DNA from: Rariglobus hedericola
GTDB taxonomy: Bacteria > Verrucomicrobiota > Verrucomicrobiia > Opitutales > Opitutaceae
NCBI RefSeq assembly: GCF_007559335.1
Contig: NZ_VMBG01000001.1
Coordinates: 682,001 to 746,000, forward strand
Reading direction: 5' to 3'
DNA length: 64,000 nucleotides
Shown here: positions 1,753 to 42,669 of the stretch, in pieces
Layout of the letters: every line of letters begins with the position of its first letter
How positions within the stretch are numbered: position 1 is the first letter of the stretch
Position numbers and translations under genes: made by a program
Notes under the pieces: model-generated
What the model was told of the DNA's origin: nothing
Seen by the model: only the letters and a program-made list of their open reading frames with translations
Databases searched by the model: none

Positions 1753-2507
1753 ACACGCCCCCCGTCAACATCCTCTGCATCAAGTGGGGCACTCGCTACG
1801 GCCCGCATTACGTCAACATCCTGCGTCGTTCGGTGTCCCGTCACCTCAACCGCCCGTTCATTTTCCACTGCTGCACGGAGGATGCCACCGGGCTCGATCC
1901 TGAGATTCGGGTCATTCCGTTTCCGGCCGATCCCGGCTTAAAGCGCGGATGGCCCGACGTGCTGGTGAAACTGATGGTGACTAAGGATGGTTTCGGCGGA
2001 TTGACCGGCCCCACCCTGTTTCTGGATCTGGATGTCGCAATCATGGCGGACATCGGCCCGTTCTTCGATTTTCAGCCCGGCAAGAACTGCATCATTCACA
2101 ATTGGGTAAAGGCCCGCAAAGAGCTGGTTGGTCAGCGCCCGCACGTCGGCAATTCCTCCATCTTCCGCTTCGAGGCCGGTGCATCCAATTATATCTACGA
2201 AACCTTCCTCCGCGAAATCCATCGCGCTGAAGACCGTTCTGTTTTCAACACCGAGCAGGCCTTCCTTACTTATGCGATGAAGGAAGTCCATTGGTGGCCC
2301 GATGAATGGGCCCGCAGCTACAAGCGCCATTGCCGCCCGCTGTTTCCGTTCAATTTATTCACGACGCCCAAGCCGCCGAAGAACTGCCGCATCCTCGTGT
2401 TTCACGGCCGCCCCGATCCCGACGAAGCGATCCGCGGTTTCAAAGGCTCCAAGATTCACCACCACATGCAGCCCGCACCGTGGATCGCCGATCACTGGAA
2501 ACAATGA
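1749..2507 (+). CDS. Glycosyltransferase, GT8/GT-A-like with DxD motif
   Basis: A 252-residue cytoplasmic protein. The N-terminal half has a Rossmann-like pattern ending in FLDLDVAIM (residues 91-99), where the D-L-D is the expected metal and nucleotide-sugar binding DxD of GT-A enzymes. A conserved-looking VGNSSIFRFEAG segment and a late VFHGRPDPDEA segment resemble GT8-type acceptor and metal-ligand regions. It overlaps both neighbours by four bases (ATGA at 1749 and at 2504), so the three genes form one coupled unit. Donor and acceptor sugars cannot be read from the sequence, and the family assignment is approximate. Confidence 0.65.
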   Translation: MNTPPVNILCIKWGTRYGPHYVNILRRSVSRHLNRPFIFHCCTEDATGLDPEIRVIPFPADPGLKRGWPDVLVKLMVTKDGFGGLTGPTLFLDLDVAIMADIGPFFDFQPGKNCIIHNWVKARKELVGQRPHVGNSSIFRFEAGASNYIYETFLREIHRAEDRSVFNTEQAFLTYAMKEVHWWPDEWARSYKRHCRPLFPFNLFTTPKPPKNCRILVFHGRPDPDEAIRGFKGSKIHHHMQPAPWIADHWKQ

Positions 2508-3346
2508 CTGTATCCGGAAACGATTTCTGGGCATCCATAGATGCCATCATTGTCGTCAATCTGGATCGCCGGGCCGATCGCTGGGCCGACATGCAGGAGC
2601 ATCTTCAATCGGTGGCTCCGATGGCGAAAGTCCACCGGTTATCCGCGGTGCTCGGTGCCGATCTGCCCGGTTACGGAAGCTCACGCTGGTTTCGTCGCAC
2701 CCGTCGCGCCGGGACTTGGGGTGGACGCGCCGGCTGCATTCTATCGCACCGCAATGCCCTGCGCCTCGCCCGCTCAAGTGGCTGGCAACGGATTTTAATC
2801 CTTGAAGATGACGCCCGCCTGTCGCCGGAACTCAATGGACCGGCCGGCCAAAAACTGGCTGGATACCTCACCGCGGAAAACAGGCCGGGTGTATGTTATT
2901 TAGGATACACCTCGCCTCGTGGCCCCGCCCGCTTGTTGGGCACACTGGATGCGGACCATGCGCTTTATGCGTTGAGAGGCGCCAGCACCACGCACGCCTA
3001 CATCGTGGATGCGGCACTCTATCACCCGCTGCTGGATTTGCTCCCGCAAACCGATGCAGGGATTTGGTCCTGGGTGGCGCGCCACACCGCGATTGATCGT
3101 TGGTATTCCCTCGCCCTCACTCGCATGACGACCGTGGCGGCAGTCTCACCACAATTGGCGCTGCAAGCCCCGTCGTTGTCCGATATCACAGCCCGGGAAT
3201 CGTCTTACGTTGAGTCCGGCAAGGGCAATGAACTCGCATCACTCCAAGGCGGTTCATTCACGGGTATGTTGGCTGCTGCCAGCGACTGCCTCAGTGCAAT
3301 CCCCCGAAATCTAAAATATCTGCTGCGTTGTTTCCGCGGATTTTAA
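2504..3346 (+). CDS. Glycosyltransferase family 25 (LPS-type)
   Basis: A 280-residue protein. The ATG at 2504 overlaps the preceding stop. It shows the GT25 pattern: IIVVNLDRRADRW (residues 15-27), the GCILSHRNALRLA block (about 77-89) and the acidic EDD metal-binding motif in ILILEDDA (97-104). GT25 enzymes add galactose or other hexoses to LPS core or capsule, or act on protein glycans. The length is close to the usual 230-280 residues. A late aromatic-rich segment (about residues 185-205) occupies the place where a second acidic motif is often found. It most likely builds the surface glycan with its coupled neighbours. Confidence 0.8.
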   Translation: MTVSGNDFWASIDAIIVVNLDRRADRWADMQEHLQSVAPMAKVHRLSAVLGADLPGYGSSRWFRRTRRAGTWGGRAGCILSHRNALRLARSSGWQRILILEDDARLSPELNGPAGQKLAGYLTAENRPGVCYLGYTSPRGPARLLGTLDADHALYALRGASTTHAYIVDAALYHPLLDLLPQTDAGIWSWVARHTAIDRWYSLALTRMTTVAAVSPQLALQAPSLSDITARESSYVESGKGNELASLQGGSFTGMLAAASDCLSAIPRNLKYLLRCFRGF

Positions 3347-6206: not shown

Positions 6207-6375
6207 GAATTGCCTCTTTGAAGCAAATTCAGGCGACAGTGCCAGCACGAAGCTGGACTACTTTGACCTCAACACATTGCGCCTGCCTCGCAGGGTGGGC
6301 CTTGGCGGTCATCATTGCTACTTGCAGAATGCGAATCGGCCTTGCTTCTGAGACATTCTGCAGATCCGGGATTAA

Positions 6376-6990
6376 TCAACTTTCATATCCTAGCATCTCA
6401 AAATCCTGCCGATATAAATCCTGCACAATTTTACGCTCAACCGGTGTGTAATAGTCACTCAGACGCATTTCTGAACCCACCGTTTGATTGATATGATGTA
6501 ACTGCAAACCGGGCAGTCCGATCTTAGCCGCTACATAGGACCAGTCCTCGGCCAGGTTTTCAAAACGTCCTACAAAATCCACGATGATGTTTCCATCTGC
6601 GTCACTGATGCGATCATAGAGCCCCTTAAAGTTCCAGTCAGCCAATGATGAGTAACCAGTCTCCTTTTGCTGTGCAGTGTAGGACGCGAAATCGAGCGTC
6701 ACCACCTTATGCTTTTTCAAGTAAAGATAGACTGAAAGAAAGTGGGTGTAGGGATGCCTGACGAAACCGAAGGTGAAGTAATCATCCCAATTTTTCTTCT
6801 TAGATTTTGTTACCGAACGCACGCCCAGCCGCTTTGAGGCCCGGGATAACATTTTACCTGTTTTCACCTCATATGCGGTGTGGTGCCTGTCATCAAACGT
6901 TTCGCAATAAGGCTTCAACGTATGGCTGAGGGATTGCGATGCCACCCTCATATTACAGACGCATATGAATTTTAGAGTATTGGATATCAA
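6376..6990 (-). CDS. Sulfotransferase family 2-like protein
   Basis: A 204-residue protein resembling carbohydrate sulfotransferases that use PAPS. FGFVRHPYTHFLSVY (residues 74-88) matches the 3'-phosphate-binding motif (R78, S86). VGRFENLAEDW and the C-terminal YTPVERKIVQDLYRQDFEMLGY are typical of the family. The N-terminal phosphosulfate loop (CNMRVASQSL) is unusual because the K-T/S of the common P-K-x-x-S/T loop is replaced. The start is TTG at 6990; an in-frame stop lies just upstream and the next ATG would remove this loop. The gene is visibly more AT-rich than its neighbours and stands alone between gaps, suggesting separate acquisition. Confidence 0.7.
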   Translation of the reverse strand: MISNTLKFICVCNMRVASQSLSHTLKPYCETFDDRHHTAYEVKTGKMLSRASKRLGVRSVTKSKKKNWDDYFTFGFVRHPYTHFLSVYLYLKKHKVVTLDFASYTAQQKETGYSSLADWNFKGLYDRISDADGNIIVDFVGRFENLAEDWSYVAAKIGLPGLQLHHINQTVGSEMRLSDYYTPVERKIVQDLYRQDFEMLGYES

Positions 6991-33930: not shown

Positions 33931-35145
33931 TCAGCGCCCCTGGTCACGGAGGTCGCCCACGGGTAACTGCACCCAGAAACAAGTGCCGGTGCCGGTAGGC
34001 GCAGAGGTGAAGCCGATCTTGCCATTCAAGCGTTCGGTAGCCCGCTGCACCATGGGAAGACCGATGCCCGTGCCTGAATATTCAGGATGAAACCGCTCAA
34101 ATAAACCGAAGATGCGGTCCTTAGCTTCGTCCGGAATACCCAGGCCATTATCGGTAAAAAGAATGGTCGCCACGCCCTTCTTGATCTCTCCGGTGATCGT
34201 CACTTCCGGGCGCACACCGGCAGCCGTGAACTTGATACCGTTGCCGATCAAGTTCCGGAAAATAACCTGCAGCATCACGGCATCGCTGACGATCACAGGC
34301 AAAGGCTGAGGCGCTGAGATCGTCGCGTTGCGCAACGTGATATCCGCATCCATCAGCGTGATGGTGCTTCGTAATACCTCGTCGAGCGCAACAGGCTTGA
34401 GCTTCATAGCCTGCCGGCTGAGCACCGCATATTTGAGCAGATCGGAAATGAGCGTATCCATTTTTCCGACCGACTGCTGCATCTTGTCCAAGTAATCCAG
34501 CGCCTCCGGAGGCAGTTGCGCTGCGTAATCTTCACGCAAGATTCCGCTGAAGCCGGCGATACCTCGCAACGGGGCGCGCAAATCATGCGCCACCGAATAA
34601 TTGAAGCGCTCCAGCTCCTGATTGAGCTGTTCGATTTCCAATCTGCGCTCTTCGCTCTTCCGCGCTGATTCGATCAATTTGAAAATCTTCGGAACGAGTG
34701 GAAACAAGACGATCGCCGTGGCGACTGATGCGGCGGCCGTGATCACCTTGACGTAACCCGACAGCCAATAAACCGGCTCCCAGATCACCCAGACCTCCAT
34801 GAAATGCGTGAGCCCGCACGATACGATGAAGAGACCGAAAGCCAGAAACACCCAGTGAAATGGTATGCCCTTGCTGGCCTTGTAAACGAGGTAGGCGAGC
34901 GTGCTGGAGATGGAAACGTAGGCCAGGCCGATCAAGCAGTCCGACACCACGTGAAGCCACACCAACTTCGGATCGCGCAGGTAACAAAACTCATGAGGCA
35001 TGCCGATGCGCGAAAATACCGAGATGCCCATCAACTCGAAGACCAAGGCGCCCAGCGCCACCGCACCTACAATACATAAACTCCATCTGAAAAACGGGAG
35101 AGCCAACCATCGACGGGGTGAGCGATGTTCAGACTGCGTTGTCAT
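33931..35145 (-). CDS. Sensor histidine kinase with ethylene-receptor (ETR1)-like membrane sensor
   Basis: A 404-residue inner-membrane kinase. After one extra N-terminal helix (about 20-40) come three membrane helices like the ethylene-binding domain of plant ETR1: SDCLIGLAYVSIS (D69, Y76), then FGLFIVSCGLTHFMEVW (I107, C110, H114), then VKVITAAASVATAIVLFPLVP. These match ETR1 Asp25, Tyr32, Ile62, Cys65 and His69 in both identity and spacing; the Cys and His bind Cu(I) in ETR1. A linker coiled coil leads to the HisKA domain (H187 in SVAHDLRAPLRG) and HATPase (N box RNLIGNGIKFT, FTDNGLGIP, GTGIGLPMV). The gene for a response regulator lies 2 bp upstream. Confidence 0.9.
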   Translation of the reverse strand: MTTQSEHRSPRRWLALPFFRWSLCIVGAVALGALVFELMGISVFSRIGMPHEFCYLRDPKLVWLHVVSDCLIGLAYVSISSTLAYLVYKASKGIPFHWVFLAFGLFIVSCGLTHFMEVWVIWEPVYWLSGYVKVITAAASVATAIVLFPLVPKIFKLIESARKSEERRLEIEQLNQELERFNYSVAHDLRAPLRGIAGFSGILREDYAAQLPPEALDYLDKMQQSVGKMDTLISDLLKYAVLSRQAMKLKPVALDEVLRSTITLMDADITLRNATISAPQPLPVIVSDAVMLQVIFRNLIGNGIKFTAAGVRPEVTITGEIKKGVATILFTDNGLGIPDEAKDRIFGLFERFHPEYSGTGIGLPMVQRATERLNGKIGFTSAPTGTGTCFWVQLPVGDLRDQGR

Positions 35146-35147
35146 TA

Positions 35148-35594
35148 TTATGCAGGATTTAGTTCAATAGTTTCGTTAAAGTTGCCCCACCACTCGTGCA
35201 AAGCTGCGACCATGGAACCGAGCCGGTCGGGTGCAGTGGGTTTCACAACATAAGAGTTGGCTCCCAGCGAATAGGCCCGGTCGATGTCCTGCTGCAGCGA
35301 CGAGGATGAAAACACGACCACCGGCAGGCGGTAACCGAAGGGTAATTCCTTGCGCCAACTCAGGACGGCAAACCCGTCCTTGCGCGGCATTTTCAAATCC
35401 AGCAGCACGATTTTGGGCAACGGGTGTAAAACGCGATCGGTGTATGCACCGCGTCCTTGGACGTAGTCGATCAGTTCATCTCCCGAGGCGACGTGCACCA
35501 TGCGGAAACACGAACCGGCCCGCCGAAGGGCACGCTCAAGAAAGAGCGCATCGTTCAAATCATCATCAGCGACCAACAATACGTCCGCGGCCAT
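35148..35594 (-). CDS. Rcp1-like single-domain response regulator
   Basis: A 148-residue receiver protein without an output domain. Acidic pocket ADDD (residues 9-12), phosphoacceptor D66 in VLLDLKMPRKDG, Ser switch residues in VVFSSSS and the Lys of VVKPT complete the site. The long loop between helix 2 and strand 3 (YVQGRGAYTDRVLHPLPK) is typical of Rcp1-type regulators that work with phytochrome-like kinases. The ATG at 35594 is preferred over the GTG one codon upstream. It lies 2 bp before the ETR1-like kinase, which is its probable partner. Confidence 0.88.
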   Translation of the reverse strand: MAADVLLVADDDLNDALFLERALRRAGSCFRMVHVASGDELIDYVQGRGAYTDRVLHPLPKIVLLDLKMPRKDGFAVLSWRKELPFGYRLPVVVFSSSSLQQDIDRAYSLGANSYVVKPTAPDRLGSMVAALHEWWGNFNETIELNPA

Positions 35595-35658
35595 CACTGT
35601 TTGAACTCACGTCACGCGCCAAACGCAAGCGGCTTTACGTTGAGCGCCATCCGAACAC

Positions 35659-36501
35659 TCAAAATACGAACGGATTATACGTGCACTCGTTTTGGATCGT
35701 CGTGAGCGGCCCGTGTCCGGGTGCGACCGCGGTATCAGCCGGCAACTCCAGCAGGCGTTTCACATGCTTCTTGAGTCGTTCGCTGCAAAAATAAGCACCG
35801 CCGATTGAGCCCGCGAACAGGATGTCGCCCGAGACCAGCAACGAACGTCCGCCGGGCATGCCGGCTGCCCGCACCACATAACAATTGTGCGCCTCCGCGT
35901 GACCGGGCGTGGCGAGCGTCTCCACGTCGAAAATACCCAGCTTCATGCGCGAGCCCTCCTGTAGCGCCACGGCACCCGAAATCGCGGAATCAACCGGCCC
36001 GAATACCGGCACCGGCCCGAAGCGGCGCTGCACATCCGCCAAACCGGCCAGATGCTCCGTCTCAGGATGCGTGATAAAAATCGCGTCGAGGTGGCGGATG
36101 TTTGCCGGCCACACGCGCCGTAAAGCCTCGGGATCGGCTCCGGTGTCGAACAGGATGCCGCGCTGCGATCCGCAATCGGCCACGATATAGGCGTTGGCCA
36201 CGCCGATGCCGTGCGGGGTGCGCAACGGATAAAGACAGAAAGGAAGTCCGCCAATAGCCGGCAGCGGATAACGTCCCGAGGCGAGCGCGACCACTCCGAT
36301 TTCGTTGAGCCCGAGCTCACGGGCCAGCCGGAGGGTTTCGTCCGCCGTGAAATCGTAGCGGTAGTCCCACGCATCGCGGATTTTTTCAGCGGGAACGCCC
36401 GCGCGGGAGCCCAGCTCGGTCTCATCGAGTTCGGCACAGCGCATGGCCTTTTCCAAGACGTCGCCCAGCTCGTCTTCAAGGGGTGCGTGTTCGATGACCA
36501 T
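35659..36501 (-). CDS. Metallo-beta-lactamase-fold protein with N-terminal helical (HTH-like) domain and altered metal motif
   Basis: A 280-residue cytoplasmic protein. Residues 1-75 form a helical domain resembling an XRE-type HTH (LGSRAGVPAEKIRDAWDYRY, then LRLARELGLNEIGVVALA). Residues 80-270 form a glyoxalase II-like MBL fold: ILFDTGADP, FITHPETEH, TPGHAEAHNCY, SGDILFAG and APGHG. The usual H-x-H-x-D-H metal motif reads H145-P-E147-T-E149-H150, so two ligands are replaced by Glu; the later His and Asp ligands are kept. It may bind a different metal or be a sensor. It is divergent from pyrE and starts at the ATG at 36501. Confidence 0.75.
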   Translation of the reverse strand: MVIEHAPLEDELGDVLEKAMRCAELDETELGSRAGVPAEKIRDAWDYRYDFTADETLRLARELGLNEIGVVALASGRYPLPAIGGLPFCLYPLRTPHGIGVANAYIVADCGSQRGILFDTGADPEALRRVWPANIRHLDAIFITHPETEHLAGLADVQRRFGPVPVFGPVDSAISGAVALQEGSRMKLGIFDVETLATPGHAEAHNCYVVRAAGMPGGRSLLVSGDILFAGSIGGAYFCSERLKKHVKRLLELPADTAVAPGHGPLTTIQNECTYNPFVF

Positions 36502-36586
36502 AATACGAGTGTATGCACGCAACCGCCCGTCGCGGCAAAAATGTTTTTGTTTTTTCAACGGCACCCACGCAGCGTCACACCCTCTT

Positions 36587-37156
36587 ATGGATTCCCAGCA
36601 ACAAGAAGTCCTCGATATCTTCAAAAACACGAAGGCGCTGCTCACCGGTCATTTCGTGCTGCGCTCCGGCCTGCACAGCGGCCATTATTTTCAATGCGCA
36701 CAGGTCTGCCAGCGCATGGACGCCGTCACGCGGCTCACCGAGTTGATGCTGCCGCAACTCGCCGCGCTGAAGTTCACCACCGTCCTCGCCCCCGCGATGG
36801 GCGGTCTTGTGATCGGCCAGGAAGTCGCCCGCCAGACGAACTCGCGCTACATTTTTGCCGAGAAAGAAAATGACCGCCTCGTGCTCCGTCGCGGCTTCAA
36901 ATTCGCGCCTGGCGAAGGTGTCTTGATTGTCGAGGACGTCGTCACCCGTGGCGGCCGCGTTCTGGAATCCATCGAGATCGTCAAAGCCGGAGGCGGCGTG
37001 CCCGTGGCCATCGCCATGCTGGTGGACCGCAGCGCGGGCACCCTGCGCTTTGATATCCCCGCAATTTCGCTGCTGGAACTGAGCTTTCCCACCTACCCCG
37101 CCGACCAAGTGCCGCCGGCGCTGGCTGCGATTCCAGTCGAGAAGCCCGGAAGCTGA
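36587..37156 (+). CDS. pyrE: Orotate phosphoribosyltransferase
   Basis: A 189-residue cytoplasmic enzyme. It converts orotate and PRPP to OMP in pyrimidine synthesis. HFVLRSGLHSGHYFQCAQV matches the PyrE N-terminal substrate region. APAMGGLVIGQEVARQ, FAEKENDRLVLRRGF (catalytic loop) and the PRPP-binding motif VLIVEDVVTRGGRVLE follow in the correct order. The length is standard. The ATG at 36587 gives a typical N-terminus. It ends before a strong bidirectional terminator. Confidence 0.95.
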   Translation: MDSQQQEVLDIFKNTKALLTGHFVLRSGLHSGHYFQCAQVCQRMDAVTRLTELMLPQLAALKFTTVLAPAMGGLVIGQEVARQTNSRYIFAEKENDRLVLRRGFKFAPGEGVLIVEDVVTRGGRVLESIEIVKAGGGVPVAIAMLVDRSAGTLRFDIPAISLLELSFPTYPADQVPPALAAIPVEKPGS

Positions 37157-37249: not shown

Positions 37250-39001
37250 TTAGACTGCGGGAGCCGCAGGTTTGGGTGCGGGCACCGGCGCGAGGCCACC
37301 CGTGCCGACCTTGTGGGTCGTCGCATCGGCGGGCATGATGGTGCGTTCGCAGAAGTCGCCGAACTTTTCACCTTCATTGCGCTCCTTGGCGTAGCGCTTT
37401 ATGACGGGCTCGAGCATCTTCACCGCATCATCGATCGTGATGCTCGGCGAGACGAGTCGGTTGAGGCGCGTGCCGTTATACGCGGCACCGAGGTAGAACG
37501 CATATTTACCGGGCGCTTTGCCCACGAAACCGATCTCGGCGAGATACGGACGGGCGCAACCGTTGGGGCAACCTGTGACGCGAAGACTGATGGCGTCGTC
37601 GTGCAGGCCGGCCTCATCCAAGACGGTCTCGAAGCGAGCCAGGATGTCGGGCAGTGCGCGCTCGCTCTCGGCGAGGGCAAGACCGCACGTGGGCAACGCC
37701 ACGCAGGACAGCGCATTAAGGCGCAGGCCGGACTGGGCGTTTTCGTTGTCGAGTCCGTAGCGGGCGAGAATGGCCTCGATAACGGGCTTCTCGGCTTCGC
37801 TGACGCCGGAGATCGTGAGATTCTGCGAGGGCGTGAGGCGGAAGTCGCCGCGATGCATCTGCGCAATCTCGCGAAGGGCGGTCTTCATGGCCCAGTTGGC
37901 GCGATCAACAATGCGGCCCGAAAGAATGTGCAGACCGTAGAACCACGAGCCATCGGCATTTTTATGCCAGCCGTGCTGATCCTGAATTGTCGTGAAGACA
38001 GCGGTCTTGGCCGGAGCGAAGGTGACGCCCGAGCGGCGCTCGACCTCGGCTTTGAACCACTCGATGCCCTTGTCCTCGATGGTGTATTTGAGACGGGCGT
38101 GCTTGCGGTTGGTGCGATCACCGTTGTCGCGCTGCGTGGTGAGCACGGCCTCGCCGATCTTGTTGACGTTGTCGCGGGTGATGAAACCGAGCGTATCGGC
38201 GATACGGGGAAAGGTTTCCTCGTTGCCGTGGCTCATGCCGAGACCACCGCCTACGGTGACGTTGTAGCCGATGAGCTGGTCGTTCTCGATCACGGCGATG
38301 TAGCCGAGATCCTGCGAGTAAACGTCGATGTCGTTGGACGGGGGAACCGCGAAGCCAGTCTTGAATTTGCGCGGCAGGTAGGTGCTGCCATACATGGGCT
38401 CACGCTCGGGTTCGCCGCCGGCCACCAGCTCTTCATCGAGCCAGATTTCGTGGTAGGCGCGGGTCTTCGGCAGGGAATAGTCGGACCAGTTCTTGGCGTC
38501 CTGATAAACGAGTTCCTGCACGGCCGACTGCTCGGGGTTCACCGGACCCATGACGTTGCGATTCACATCGCCGCACGCAGCGATGGAATCGAGAAGAACT
38601 TTGTGCATGCCCTGAATCAGGGGCTTCATGTTGCCCTTCAACACGCCGTGAAATTGAAACGTCTGGCGGGTCGTGAGGCGCAGCGACGGGGACGCGAGCT
38701 CGGTGGCGAGCTGGTCCAGCACGAGCCACTGCTGGGGAGTGGCCTTGCCGCCGGGAAGGCGGACGCGAAGCATGAAGGAGTAAGCCTTGTCCTTGCCGGC
38801 TTTGCGGAGGGCGATGCGCTGGTCGCGGTCGTCCTGCTGGTAGGTGCCGTGGAATTTGATCAGCTGCTCGCTGTCGGCGGACACCGTCGCGGTGGTCGTA
38901 TCGGCAAACTCAGTCTTGAGATTGCCGCGTAGGTGGTGCGACGCGGTCTTGATGCCTTCGTTGGCGGCGAGCGGCTTCGGTGCCGCAGGGTCAGTGGTCA
39001 T
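37250..39001 (-). CDS. cysI: Sulfite reductase hemoprotein subunit (CysI-type)
   Basis: A 583-residue enzyme that reduces sulfite to sulfide in assimilation, using siroheme and a 4Fe-4S cluster. It opens with HHLRGNLKTEF and LIKFHGTYQQDDRDQR, then RVRLPGGKATPQQWL and LRLTTRQTFQFHG. The cluster ligands lie in ALPTCGLALAESER and TGCPNGCARPYLAEIGFVG (C-x5-C and C-x3-C spacing). Length and order fit NADPH- or ferredoxin-dependent CysI rather than nitrite reductase. No cysJ is adjacent, so the electron donor is unknown. A Pro/Ala-rich tail ends the protein. Start is the ATG at 39001. Confidence 0.92.
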   Translation of the reverse strand: MTTDPAAPKPLAANEGIKTASHHLRGNLKTEFADTTTATVSADSEQLIKFHGTYQQDDRDQRIALRKAGKDKAYSFMLRVRLPGGKATPQQWLVLDQLATELASPSLRLTTRQTFQFHGVLKGNMKPLIQGMHKVLLDSIAACGDVNRNVMGPVNPEQSAVQELVYQDAKNWSDYSLPKTRAYHEIWLDEELVAGGEPEREPMYGSTYLPRKFKTGFAVPPSNDIDVYSQDLGYIAVIENDQLIGYNVTVGGGLGMSHGNEETFPRIADTLGFITRDNVNKIGEAVLTTQRDNGDRTNRKHARLKYTIEDKGIEWFKAEVERRSGVTFAPAKTAVFTTIQDQHGWHKNADGSWFYGLHILSGRIVDRANWAMKTALREIAQMHRGDFRLTPSQNLTISGVSEAEKPVIEAILARYGLDNENAQSGLRLNALSCVALPTCGLALAESERALPDILARFETVLDEAGLHDDAISLRVTGCPNGCARPYLAEIGFVGKAPGKYAFYLGAAYNGTRLNRLVSPSITIDDAVKMLEPVIKRYAKERNEGEKFGDFCERTIMPADATTHKVGTGGLAPVPAPKPAAPAV

Positions 39002-39147
39002 GGTTAAGGGAAGAACGTGCAGCCTGTAAGCGCATGGTTCAAGGGGGAAAATGAGTTTGTGTGTCAGCTTACTTTGGATTGACGCCGCGCTTCTTAACCT
39101 TGCCACGCCTCTCCTCGCGCACAGGAGTTGCTACAACCCACTACCCT

Positions 39148-39903
39148 ATGAGCTTATTCTTCTCCAGCCGGGCGTTAACTACCATGGTTGCTTTATTGAC
39201 AACGGCCGCAGTTTCCCAAGCGGAATTCCGGACGTGGACCAAAACCAACGGCGAACACATTGAAGCCGAGTTGGCCGGACAAACCACCGCCGCCGTCAAA
39301 TTACGCACGAAAAACGGCTCGATGGAAATCTGGTCCAAAGACCGCTTGAGCGAGGAAGACCGCGCCTTCATCGGAATCGGCGGAAGCACCGCGGCAAAGA
39401 CCGAGACACCGGCGGCTGAAGCGCCACCAGAGCAGCCGGCGACCACGATTTTTCCGATCACTCGTCAACTGGGAGGAAAACTGGTTTCGATGACCAACGG
39501 CGTGACGGCGCCCGTGCCCGCTTCCCGTGTCGCCGGCGTGAAATATTACGCCTTTTATTATTCGGCCAGTTGGTGCCCGCCCTGCCGCGCGTTCACGCCG
39601 GACCTGGTCGAAGCCTACAAAAAAATCAAAGCGAAGCACCCCGAGTTCGAAATCGTTTTCGTGAGTTCCGACGAATCGGAGTCTGCAATGAAGTCCTACA
39701 TGAAGGGCGACAAAATGGAATGGACCGCCGTGCGCTTCGCCGACATCGCGTCCACACCCTTGCTGGAAAAATACTCGCAGCGCGGCATCCCCAATCTCGT
39801 TTTTGTCGATGGAAGCGGCAAGGTGCTTTCAGCCAGTTACGAAGGCGGCAATTACGTCGGCCCGCGCAAGGTTTTGGCCGACATCAAGAAGACGCTCAAC
39901 TGA
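39148..39903 (+). CDS. Exported thioredoxin-like protein with SHD1-like N-terminal domain
   Basis: A 251-residue protein. The signal peptide (1-24, ending AVSQA) leads to an SHD1-like domain (FRTWTKTNGEHIEAELAG, then LRTKNGSMEIWSKDRLSEEDRAFI), a pattern common in Planctomycetes and Verrucomicrobia. An Ala/Pro linker follows, then a nucleoredoxin/TlpA-type thioredoxin fold with SASWCPPCRAF as the redox site and a conserved cis-Pro region (RGIPNLVFVDG). It probably acts as a periplasmic thiol-disulfide protein. The ATG at 39148 is chosen because in-frame codons upstream give no better signal peptide. It ends at a bidirectional terminator. Confidence 0.85.
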   Translation: MSLFFSSRALTTMVALLTTAAVSQAEFRTWTKTNGEHIEAELAGQTTAAVKLRTKNGSMEIWSKDRLSEEDRAFIGIGGSTAAKTETPAAEAPPEQPATTIFPITRQLGGKLVSMTNGVTAPVPASRVAGVKYYAFYYSASWCPPCRAFTPDLVEAYKKIKAKHPEFEIVFVSSDESESAMKSYMKGDKMEWTAVRFADIASTPLLEKYSQRGIPNLVFVDGSGKVLSASYEGGNYVGPRKVLADIKKTLN

Positions 39904-39912
39904 TTCGGGCGC

Positions 39913-39946
39913 AAAAAAAGCCCGCCGGAGATACCGGCGGGCTTTG
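39913..39946. terminator. Bidirectional intrinsic terminator between thioredoxin-like gene and ahcY
   Basis: A perfect 12-bp stem (39917-39928 with 39934-39945, loop AGATA) carries A-rich sequence before it and TTT after it. It can stop the rightward thioredoxin-like transcript and the leftward ahcY transcript. Confidence 0.88.
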
Positions 39947-39966
39947 TATTCAGATAACCGTTACGC

Positions 39967-41406
39967 TTAGTAGCGGTAGTGCTCGGGCTTGTAGGGACCG
40001 TTGACGGAAACGCCGAGGTATTCGGCCTGGTTCTTCGTGAGGGTCGTGAGCTTCACGCCGATACGCTCGAGGTGGAGACGGGCGACTTCTTCGTCGAGGT
40101 GCTTGGGCAGGCGGTAAACACCGATCGCATAGGTGTCCTTGTTCTTCCAGAGATCGAGCTGGGCGAGCGTCTGGTTGGTGAAGGAGTTCGACATGACGAA
40201 TGACGGATGGCCGGTAGCGCAGCCGAGATTCACCAGGCGGCCTTCGGCGAGCAGGTAGATGCTGTTGCCCTTCGGGAAGGTGAACAGGTCGTATTGCGGC
40301 TTGATGGTGACGCGCTTCACGCCCTTGGCCTTGTAGAGGCGGTCGACCTGGATCTCGTTGTCGAAGTGGCCGATGTTACAGACGATGGCCTGATCCTTCA
40401 TCTTTTGCATGTGCTCGAGCGTGATGACGTCCTTGTTGCCCGTGGTGGTAACGTAGATATCAGCGATGCCGAGGGTGCTTTCGACGGTGTTGACCTCGAA
40501 GCCTTCCATAGCGGCCTGCAAGGCGTTGATCGGATCGACCTCGGTGACGATGACGCGGGCGCCGAAGCCCTTGAGCGAAAACGCGGAGCCCTTGCCCACA
40601 TCGCCGTAGCCGCACACGCAGGCAACCTTGCCGGCGATCATGACGTCGGTGGCGCGCTTGAGACCGTCAGCCAGCGATTCGCGGCAACCGTAGAGATTGT
40701 CGAATTTGGACTTGGTGACGGAGTCGTTCACGTTGATCGCAGGCACGAGCAACTTGCCCTTCTCGTGGAGCTGATAGAGACGGTGCACGCCGGTGGTGGT
40801 CTCCTCGGAGACGCCGCGCCACTCTTTCACCATCGCGGTGAAGATGCCCTTCTGGGTCTTCCCGATCTTCTTGAGGAGGTCTTTGATGACCTGCTCTTCG
40901 TGCGAGTCGGACTTGGTGGTGACCCAGTCGCTGCCGAGTTCCATCTCGTAGCCTTTATGCAGGAGCAGCGTGACGTCGCCGCCGTCATCGACGACGAGCT
41001 GCGGGCCCTTGCCACCGGGAAAGCTGACGGCCTTCCAGGTGAGATCCCAGTATTCCTCAAGCGTCTCGCCCTTCCAGGCGAAGACGGGCACGCCGGCCTT
41101 CGCGATCGCGGCTGCTGCATGGTCTTGGGTGGAGAAAATATTGCACGAAGCCCAGCGGACGTCGGCGCCCAGCGAGACGAGGGTCTCGATGAGGACGGCG
41201 GTCTGGATCGTCATGTGCAACGAACCGGTGACGCGAACGCCCTTCAGGGGCTTATGCTTGCCGAATTTTTTGCGGAGGGAAACGAGGCCGGGCATCTCGT
41301 GCTCGGCGACGTTGAGTTCCTTGCGGCCCCATTCGGCGAGCTTGATATCGCGGACGATGAAGTCCTGGCCTTTGGGAACATTCTTGAGAAGTGAAACGGA
41401 TGACAT
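39967..41406 (-). CDS. ahcY: Adenosylhomocysteinase (S-adenosylhomocysteine hydrolase)
   Basis: A 479-residue cytoplasmic enzyme that splits SAH into adenosine and homocysteine with bound NAD+. [31 protein letters not shown] and [15 protein letters not shown] are substrate-region motifs. [30 protein letters not shown] is the NAD+-binding site. The C-terminus ends PEHYRY as in the family. It removes the SAH product inhibitor, which fits its place 45 bp after metK in the same operon. The length is normal for bacterial enzymes with the extra internal segment. Confidence 0.97.
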
Positions 41407-41451
41407 GATGTGGTGGTGACTGTCGTTAAATAACGGATACGCGAACGGCGC

Positions 41452-42669
41452 TTACTTGACGGCCTTCACGGCCGCGAGCAGCGCGGCGACCTTCGTGGTC
41501 TGCTCCCAAGGGAGACCCGACTTGCCGAAGTGGCCGTAGTTGGTCGTCTCGCGGTAGATCGGACGGAGCAAGTCGAGCTGCTTGACGATGTCGGCGGGCT
41601 TGAAGCTGAACACCTTTTGAATGGCCTCGGTAATCGTCTCGTCGGAAACGGTGCCGGTGCCGAAGGTGTTCACATAAACGCTCACGGGATTCGGGTGGCC
41701 GATCGCGTAGGCGAACTGAACCTCGACCTGTTTGGCGAGTTTGGCGGCAACGATGTTCTTGGCGACCCAGCGGCCCATGTAAGCAGCCGAACGGTCAACC
41801 TTGGACGGATCTTTGCCCGAGAAGGCGCCGCCACCGTGACGGCCCCAACCGCCGTAGGAATCGACGATTATCTTGCGGCCGGTGAGACCGGAATCGCCCT
41901 GGGGACCACCGATCACGAACTTGCCGGTCGGATTGATCAGATACTCGGTCTTGGCGTTGAGCAGCTTAGCCGGAAGAACCTTCTTGATGACGTTCTTGAT
42001 GAGGAACGCCTCGATCTCGGAATGGGCAACATCAGCCGTGTGCTGCGTGGAGATGACGACGTTCACGATCTCGGTGGCAACGCCATCAACATAGCGAACC
42101 GAGACCTGCGACTTCGCATCGGGACGGAGCCACTTCACTTTGCCGCTCTTGCGGATTTTGGTGAGCTCGCGACCAAGGCGGTGAGCGAAGATAATCGGGG
42201 CGGGCATTAGCTCCTCGGTCTCGTCGGCGGCAAAGCCGAACATGAGGCCTTGGTCGCCGGCACCTTGCTCGGCTGTCTTTTTGCCGGAGGCCTTCTTGGC
42301 GTCCACACCCTGCGCGATGTCGGCCGACTGCGCGGTCAGGTAGTTGTTGATGAATACGGTGTCGGCGTGAAACACATCATCATCGTTGGTGTAACCGATG
42401 TGACGGATGGCATCGCGGATGACCTTGTCGACGTTGAAAGCCTCGTCGATGGGCTTGGTCTTGCCCGTCTTTTTGTCCTGCAGCTTCGGGATGGTGATCT
42501 CGCCGCCAACCACGACGACGTTGGATTTAACGAACGTCTCGCACGCAACGCGCGAGGTTTTGTCGATTGCCAAGCAAGCATCGAGGATGCTGTCGGAAAT
42601 GAGGTCGGCAACCTTGTCAGGATGCCCCTCGCCCACGGACTCGGAGGAAAACACGAATGAGTTAGCCAT
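41452..42669 (-). CDS. metK: S-adenosylmethionine synthetase
   Basis: A 405-residue cytoplasmic enzyme that makes AdoMet from methionine and ATP. The N-terminus [22 protein letters not shown] contains the first ATP-binding His-Pro-Asp-Lys. [12 protein letters not shown] is the central active-site loop, and [29 protein letters not shown] is the C-terminal ATP/K+ signature. It carries somewhat longer loops than E. coli MetK (384 aa). It is first in a metK-ahcY operon. An inverted repeat in its leader may be a regulatory site. Confidence 0.97.

Follow-up and report, generated by a model that had tools for sequence, protein, structure and literature searches.

Does a bacterial sensor kinase that carries the membrane domain of the plant ethylene receptor ETR1 also sense ethylene? 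The question is raised by a kinase and an adjacent response regulator of Rariglobus hedericola, which lie in a window of 64,000 nucleotides, the whole stretch of DNA that was analysed.

The kinase, its regulator and their neighbourhood

The kinase gene (33931..35145, minus strand) codes for a protein of 404 aa with an N-terminal hydrophobic segment followed by ETR1_N, HisKA and HATPase_c domains. In the Pfam scan, ETR1_N (PF25487; residues 61-157; 34675..34965, minus strand) was matched over profile positions 2-97 of 97 with 124.4 bits and an E-value of 2.3e-36, the curated cut-off of the family being 27 bits. This profile search bore out the ETR1-type domain that a first-pass annotation had proposed. 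An unrelated membrane family was ruled out for the membrane domain, PF25487 being the sole sensor-domain family above cut-off in the kinase. In a profile search of the source genome, this kinase gave the only ETR1_N match. HisKA was found at residues 178-240, including H187 (E 1.7e-12), and HATPase_c at residues 288-396 (E 7.7e-21), and the H, N, G1 and G2 motifs were all present; the protein is thus an orthodox histidine kinase with the complete HisKA/HATPase part that the annotation had described. No GAF, PAS or receiver domain was matched by Pfam in the 404-aa kinase, and with a gap of about 20 residues between ETR1_N and HisKA it is not built like a plant receptor with GAF. Hydropathy peaks (Kyte-Doolittle) started at residues 23 (2.35), 61, 94 and 134, and a further one was seen at residue 282, within the soluble HATPase part.

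The regulator is a single-domain protein of 148 aa from its ATG (35148..35594, minus strand; open frame 35148-35597). The ATG at 35594 is where the first-pass annotation had ended the pair. Both genes are on the same strand with the regulator first, and two bases separate the regulator stop from the kinase ATG. Pfam matched Response_reg alone, with no output domain, and the receiver Asp, Ser and Lys residues were present (D10-D12, D66, S96 and K118). The best ten PDB matches, with E-values from 8e-20 to 4e-14, included RphyB, RcpB, RcpA and Rcp1. With one receiver, no output domain and Rcp/phytochrome regulators among its top matches, the protein is of the Rcp1/RcpB kind, which agrees with the Rcp1-type neighbour proposed earlier. 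The catalytic residues of both the kinase and the receiver are intact.

Conservation of the locus was analysed by tblastn (E up to 1e-5) in seven relatives (L001-L005, L112 and L113, about 4-5.5 kb on each side); the queries were 12 proteins encoded between 30,051 and 42,669 of the window. The kinase was found in all seven with 61.5-71% identity. The regulator was found in five (L001-L004 and L113) with 51-74% identity, always directly upstream of the kinase, and was not found near the kinase in the roughly 5 kb read upstream in L005 and L112. None of the other ten proteins had a match nearby in any of the seven relatives at this threshold. Only the kinase and the regulator recur at the locus, and therefore the pair is conserved as a unit while its neighbours change.

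Among these neighbours, a metallo-beta-lactamase-fold protein (35659-36645, minus strand) lies on the same strand and ends 64 bases before the regulator ATG. The region 37250-42669 contains a sulphite/nitrite reductase found by Pfam and open reading frames that by eye resemble a thioredoxin-fold protein, S-adenosylhomocysteine hydrolase and methionine adenosyltransferase. In the tblastn search, the metallo-beta-lactamase-fold protein, the reductase and the thioredoxin-fold and S-adenosylhomocysteine/methionine-type proteins had no counterpart next to the pair in the seven relatives. In the Opitutaceae record L005 (4821-6182), the kinase is placed between same-strand open reading frames resembling SufU and SufS by eye.

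The source genome was also searched for ACC deaminase and a Cu P-type ATPase. ACC deaminase gave no match in the profile search, with a model that found some match in 6 of 14 control genomes and exceeded its cut-off in none of the 14. The Cu P-type ATPase model matched at four places, none above the cut-off of 397 bits (best 378.7), and exceeded the cut-off in 13 of the 14 control genomes. Neither search decides whether there is a link to plant association or copper supply.

Binding-site residues and the clade without the helix-1 proline

The first-pass annotation had placed the ETR1 residues Asp25, Tyr32, Ile62, Cys65 and His69 at D69, Y76, I107, C110 and H114 of the kinase with nearly identical spacing. 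All five were present at these positions, with intervals of 7/31/3/4 against 7/30/3/4 in ETR1. Ethylene binding by ETR1 requires these five and two more residues, I35 and P36, which had gone unmentioned. I79 corresponds to I35, but the place of P36 is taken by S80, so that the kinase keeps six of the seven (D25, Y32, I35, P36, I62, C65 and H69). The copper site of an ethylene receptor is present as C110 (C65), H114 (H69) and D69 (D25), and K91 is kept as K133. P36 is presumably the position of the tomato Never-ripe change. In the cited sections of PMC11819568 and PMC6586836, both of which refer to Wang 2006, alanine scanning is described as showing that all seven residues, including P36, are required for ethylene binding by ETR1; the part of PMC6586836 used here names I35, P36 and I62 among them. 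According to the same sections of both papers, the Cys and the His hold copper, the Asp positions the His and the helix-3 Lys affects output; the former part of PMC6586836 adds that S98 moderately affects binding and T94 affects signalling. In the portions of PMC7700396 and PMC6727826 that were available, nothing further on P36 was found, and the Never-ripe position did not appear in that of PMC6727826.

To place the substitution, 174 distinct domains from fetched loci were aligned. Numbering followed an ETR1 sequence that we take to be the reference sequence; its numbering fits the published residue numbers, and it matched PF25487 with 116.9 bits. Before counting, 13 identical duplicate domains were removed. 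Nineteen fetched loci gave no domain with the profile used for the alignment: ten carry the kinase part only (L006-L015) and nine are weak, although two of the nine, L038 and L205, exceed the Pfam cut-off. Another five places of the cyanobacterial phylum were left out, three of them fragments of 31-39 positions and two matches below cut-off. At the P36 position, Pro was found in 137 domains, Ser in 18, Ala in 14, Leu in three and Thr in two, and all seven residues were kept in 113 of the 174. None of the six binding residues kept in the window kinase varied in five orthologues with 59-70% identity to it.

In a tree of 92 domains computed without the P36 column, the window kinase fell in a clade of 14 rows with support of 100/99. 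The clade comprised eight Opitutaceae, four cyanobacterial rows (L063 from Kovacikia, L179, L182 and L183), L120, and L065 from Deinococcus. At the P36 position it had 13 Ser, one Ala and no Pro. These 92 rows out of 175 included every third cyanobacterial row with all seven residues and 9 of the 22 P36-less cyanobacterial rows, the latter chosen by residue pattern, while L037, L135 and others were left out. Because some rows had been chosen by residue pattern, a second tree was made with all 175 rows and without all eight functional columns. It recovered the same clade with an SH-aLRT value of 100 and 15 rows, none of them bearing P36; the added row, L135, has Thr at this position and has lost other residues too. 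Both trees rest on 111-118 columns and their finer branching is unsure, as is, owing to long branches, the clade membership of L065, L120 and L135.

The other six residues were kept in 13 of the 14 clade rows versus 4 of the 23 P36-less domains outside (Fisher test, p 1.4e-5, a descriptive value only as it ignores kinship), or 13 of 15 versus 4 of 22 when L135 was counted inside. C65 is also lost in L183 and L135, both of which fall in the clade. Judged from these alignments, the loss of P36 appears mostly to accompany decay of the site elsewhere, and mostly not in this clade. The clade differs at other membrane positions as well. Ala or Gly occupied ETR1 position 40 in 14/14 clade rows versus 15/160 outside, Ala position 57 in 14/14 versus 8/160, and Ala position 97 in 13/14 versus 12/160. 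These small residues may enlarge a cavity or aid helix packing. The helix-3 positions T94, S98 and T101 were the same as in ETR1 in all 14 rows. Among the titles and abstract openings listed in the literature search, there was no report of this clade or of a bacterial receptor lacking P36.

The extra N-terminal part of the kinase (residues 16-55; 34981..35100, minus strand) consists of a hydrophobic segment, with a helix at about residues 17-38, and the motif MPHEFCY directly before ETR1_N. The additional N-terminal helix suggested by the first-pass annotation is thus matched by a hydrophobic segment, with the hydropathy peak of 2.35 from residue 23. Two AlphaFold predictions of six sequences each (mean pLDDT 62.0 and 69.7) both placed a helix at residues 17-38 with low to medium confidence there, and helices at 59-90, 96-122 and 126-164 were predicted in the weak model with the mean pLDDT of 69.7. 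Foldseek with these weak models gave no match in the PDB at E <= 0.001, and when the PDB was searched by sequence with residues 52-165, there was none at E up to 1 either. MPHEFCY is invariant in the window kinase and five aligned orthologues, and appears as MPHETCY in L055 and LPHEFCY in L020. The hydropathy of the segment was 1.75-2.57 in the window kinase, L002-L005, L020 and L055, and 1.45-1.6 in L063 and L065; the segment was visible by eye in L001 and L179, and visual inspection of the open frames of the clade rows L182, L183 and L120 did not reveal it. As a unique mark of the clade it was ruled out by the P36-bearing L053 (2.58), L061 (2.62) and L064 (1.43). Clade builds outside Opitutaceae included, by eye, kinase-receiver hybrids (L063, L206 and L208), PAS-like parts (L207) and a kinase with a receiver (L209). 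Among the clade members examined, a compact kinase with its own Rcp1-type regulator was found in Opitutaceae only.

Distribution of the ETR1_N domain

At E up to 0.001, 24 of the 387 genomes searched in the window's phylum had an ETR1_N match (23 over cut-off), as had 23 of 200 genomes in its family (20 over cut-off). The domain was found in 45 of 146 genomes of Cyanobacteria, the phylum of the Okeania record (44 over cut-off), in 13 of 198 genomes of the phylum of the Roseivirga record (all 13 over cut-off), and in 3 of 198 and 3 of 201 genomes, one over cut-off in each case, of the phyla of the records titled Deltaproteobacteria and Chloroflexi, respectively. Matches were also present on 19 plasmid records, including those of Azospirillum, Novosphingobium and Deinococcus. 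The closest relatives of the window kinase are Opitutaceae records. Presence within the window's genus is patchy: among the genomes listed, four of nine had a match, which was of the Ser type in the window, G438 and G471 and of the Pro type in G529 (L048).

Several side observations were made on these copies. Some cyanobacterial genomes carry many matches, six in one Okeania genome (L072 and L078-L082) and nine in G688, and binding residues are altered in several cyanobacterial copies (L082; L185, L189 and L201). In L041, L042, L056, L124 and L128, the equivalent of ETR1 D25 is Asn while Cys and His are kept, and the equivalent of K91 is Leu (L041, L042 and L128) or Asp (L056 and L124). The joint change affects the two partners of a proposed contact between helix 1 and helix 3; against a paired change, the Asp is likewise Asn in L093 and L111 but the Lys is unchanged there. 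L056, from the window's family, and L124, from the phylum of the Roseivirga record, carry ETR1_N deep inside large proteins and join with support of 100/100, a grouping that hints at transfer between phyla. L040, a larger P36-bearing ETR1_N protein of the window's family, has an Rcp1-like receiver just before and just after its open frame (L114 from G085, 6258-6662 and 2496-2903, minus strand).

Candidate ligands and comparison with known systems

The earlier interpretation stood in part. The family, the copper-site residues, the complete kinase and the Rcp1-type partner were borne out, but the suggestion of ethylene as the ligand is weakened because P36, required in ETR1, is Ser here and no clade member has Pro. 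On the strength of the alignments, ethylene binding should not be assumed for the Pro36-less subfamily. We consider the best reading, with a probability of roughly 0.6, to be a Cu(I)-loaded two-component sensor of a small ligand, a natural variant of the ethylene-receptor family without P36. The ETR1_N domain, presumably of three helices and part of a kinase dimer, would most likely use C110 and H114 to hold Cu(I), with D69 positioning them. A small Cu(I)-binding ligand (an alkene such as ethylene, CO or some comparable apolar molecule) would arrive through the membrane, K133 would pass the signal onward, and autophosphorylation at H187 would be altered by ligand binding. From the kinase, the phosphoryl group is predicted to reach D66 in the neighbouring regulator of Rcp1 type. 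As this regulator has no DNA-binding or output domain, it probably acts by binding a partner protein. Since the clade lacks the helix-1 proline but mostly retains the copper-site residues, its ligand choice or gating probably differs from that of the plant receptor.

It is possible, though short of probable, that the kinase is an ordinary ethylene receptor, in which Ser80 would substitute for P36 in this background and the ligand would be ethylene as in SynEtr1 and AzoEtr1. The retention of six of the seven residues and of K91, the ETR1-like T94, S98 and T101 throughout the clade, and the similar layout and partner described for AzoEtr1 in the cited part of its report are all consistent with this. 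Against it, ETR1 cannot do without P36, 137 of the 160 domains outside the clade have this proline, and the clade also differs at positions 40, 57 and 97. The same differences allow another tentative reading, that the clade kept Cu(I), rebuilt the pocket by the change of P36 to Ser and of bulky to small residues at the three positions, and would sense something other than ethylene, perhaps an alkene of larger size or a different gas that binds Cu(I).

Copper itself might be the signal, with the pair reporting copper availability at the membrane. The retention of the copper residues alongside the loss of P36, which ETR1 needs for ethylene binding, would fit such a sensor. We regard it as improbable, as the Pfam scan of seven neighbours of the pair gave no copper-handling family, and the femtomolar Cu(I) affinity of ETR1, given in the cited section of PMC6586836, is more in keeping with a cofactor than with a reversible signal. 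That the membrane domain has decayed into an anchor, with the signal entering elsewhere, is very unlikely. In its favour, P36 is lost, 19 of the 23 domains without this proline outside the 14-row clade lack one or more others of the seven as well, which looks like decay, and C65 is gone from two clade rows. Against it, nearly all clade rows keep the other six, these do not vary between the window kinase and its five orthologues, and Pfam matched no other sensor domain in the kinase.

A clade that lacks this proline but mostly retains the copper site offers a natural experiment on what determines ligand choice in the receptor family. The compact kinase of about 400 aa, with no GAF or PAS match and with its own regulator, may also be a handy system in which to rebuild signalling of the ETR1 type, from the ligand through to phosphotransfer.

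That ethylene receptors occur beyond plants and cyanobacteria has been published, and the presence of the domain here is not new. AzoEtr1 of Azospirillum brasilense, for which we took L062 (Azospirillum brasilense Sp 7 record), binds ethylene in a binding assay and is adjoined by a lone-receiver regulator, as described in the section consulted of PMC11819568. With AzoEtr1 published and ETR1_N found across several phyla, the novelty that the first-pass annotation had seen in sensing outside these groups does not hold. AzoEtr1 shares with the window kinase the placement of ETR1_N on a kinase outside plants and cyanobacteria, the adjacent lone-receiver regulator, the Cys, His and Asp of the copper site, and a spacing of 19 between that His and the Lys of helix 3. 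It differs in having all seven residues including P36, where the window kinase has S80, in having a PAS domain and in lacking the extra N-terminal hydrophobic segment. Its regulator gene lies downstream of the kinase gene according to that section of PMC11819568, whereas the window regulator lies upstream. A search with the window regulator through the 1.8 kb that follow the Azospirillum gene did not recover the Azospirillum regulator, and therefore the two partners are not close kin.

SynEtr1 (slr1212) of Synechocystis PCC 6803, compared by its description in the cited parts of PMC6682694 and PMC11819568, is likewise a bacterial ETR1_N kinase with phosphotransfer to a response regulator; it also carries a cyanobacteriochrome, and its regulator slr1213 raises csiR1 transcription. 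Arabidopsis ETR1, as presented in the part of PMC6586836 used above, shares the domain family, six of the seven binding residues and K91, but has Pro36 in place of Ser80, and the window kinase differs from it further by the lack of a GAF match, the extra N-terminal segment and a different partner. The phytochrome regulators Rcp1 and RcpB (PDB 1i3c, 1jlk and 1k66) are likewise single receivers and aligned with the window regulator over nearly its full length; they belong with phytochrome, whereas the window regulator adjoins an ETR1_N kinase.
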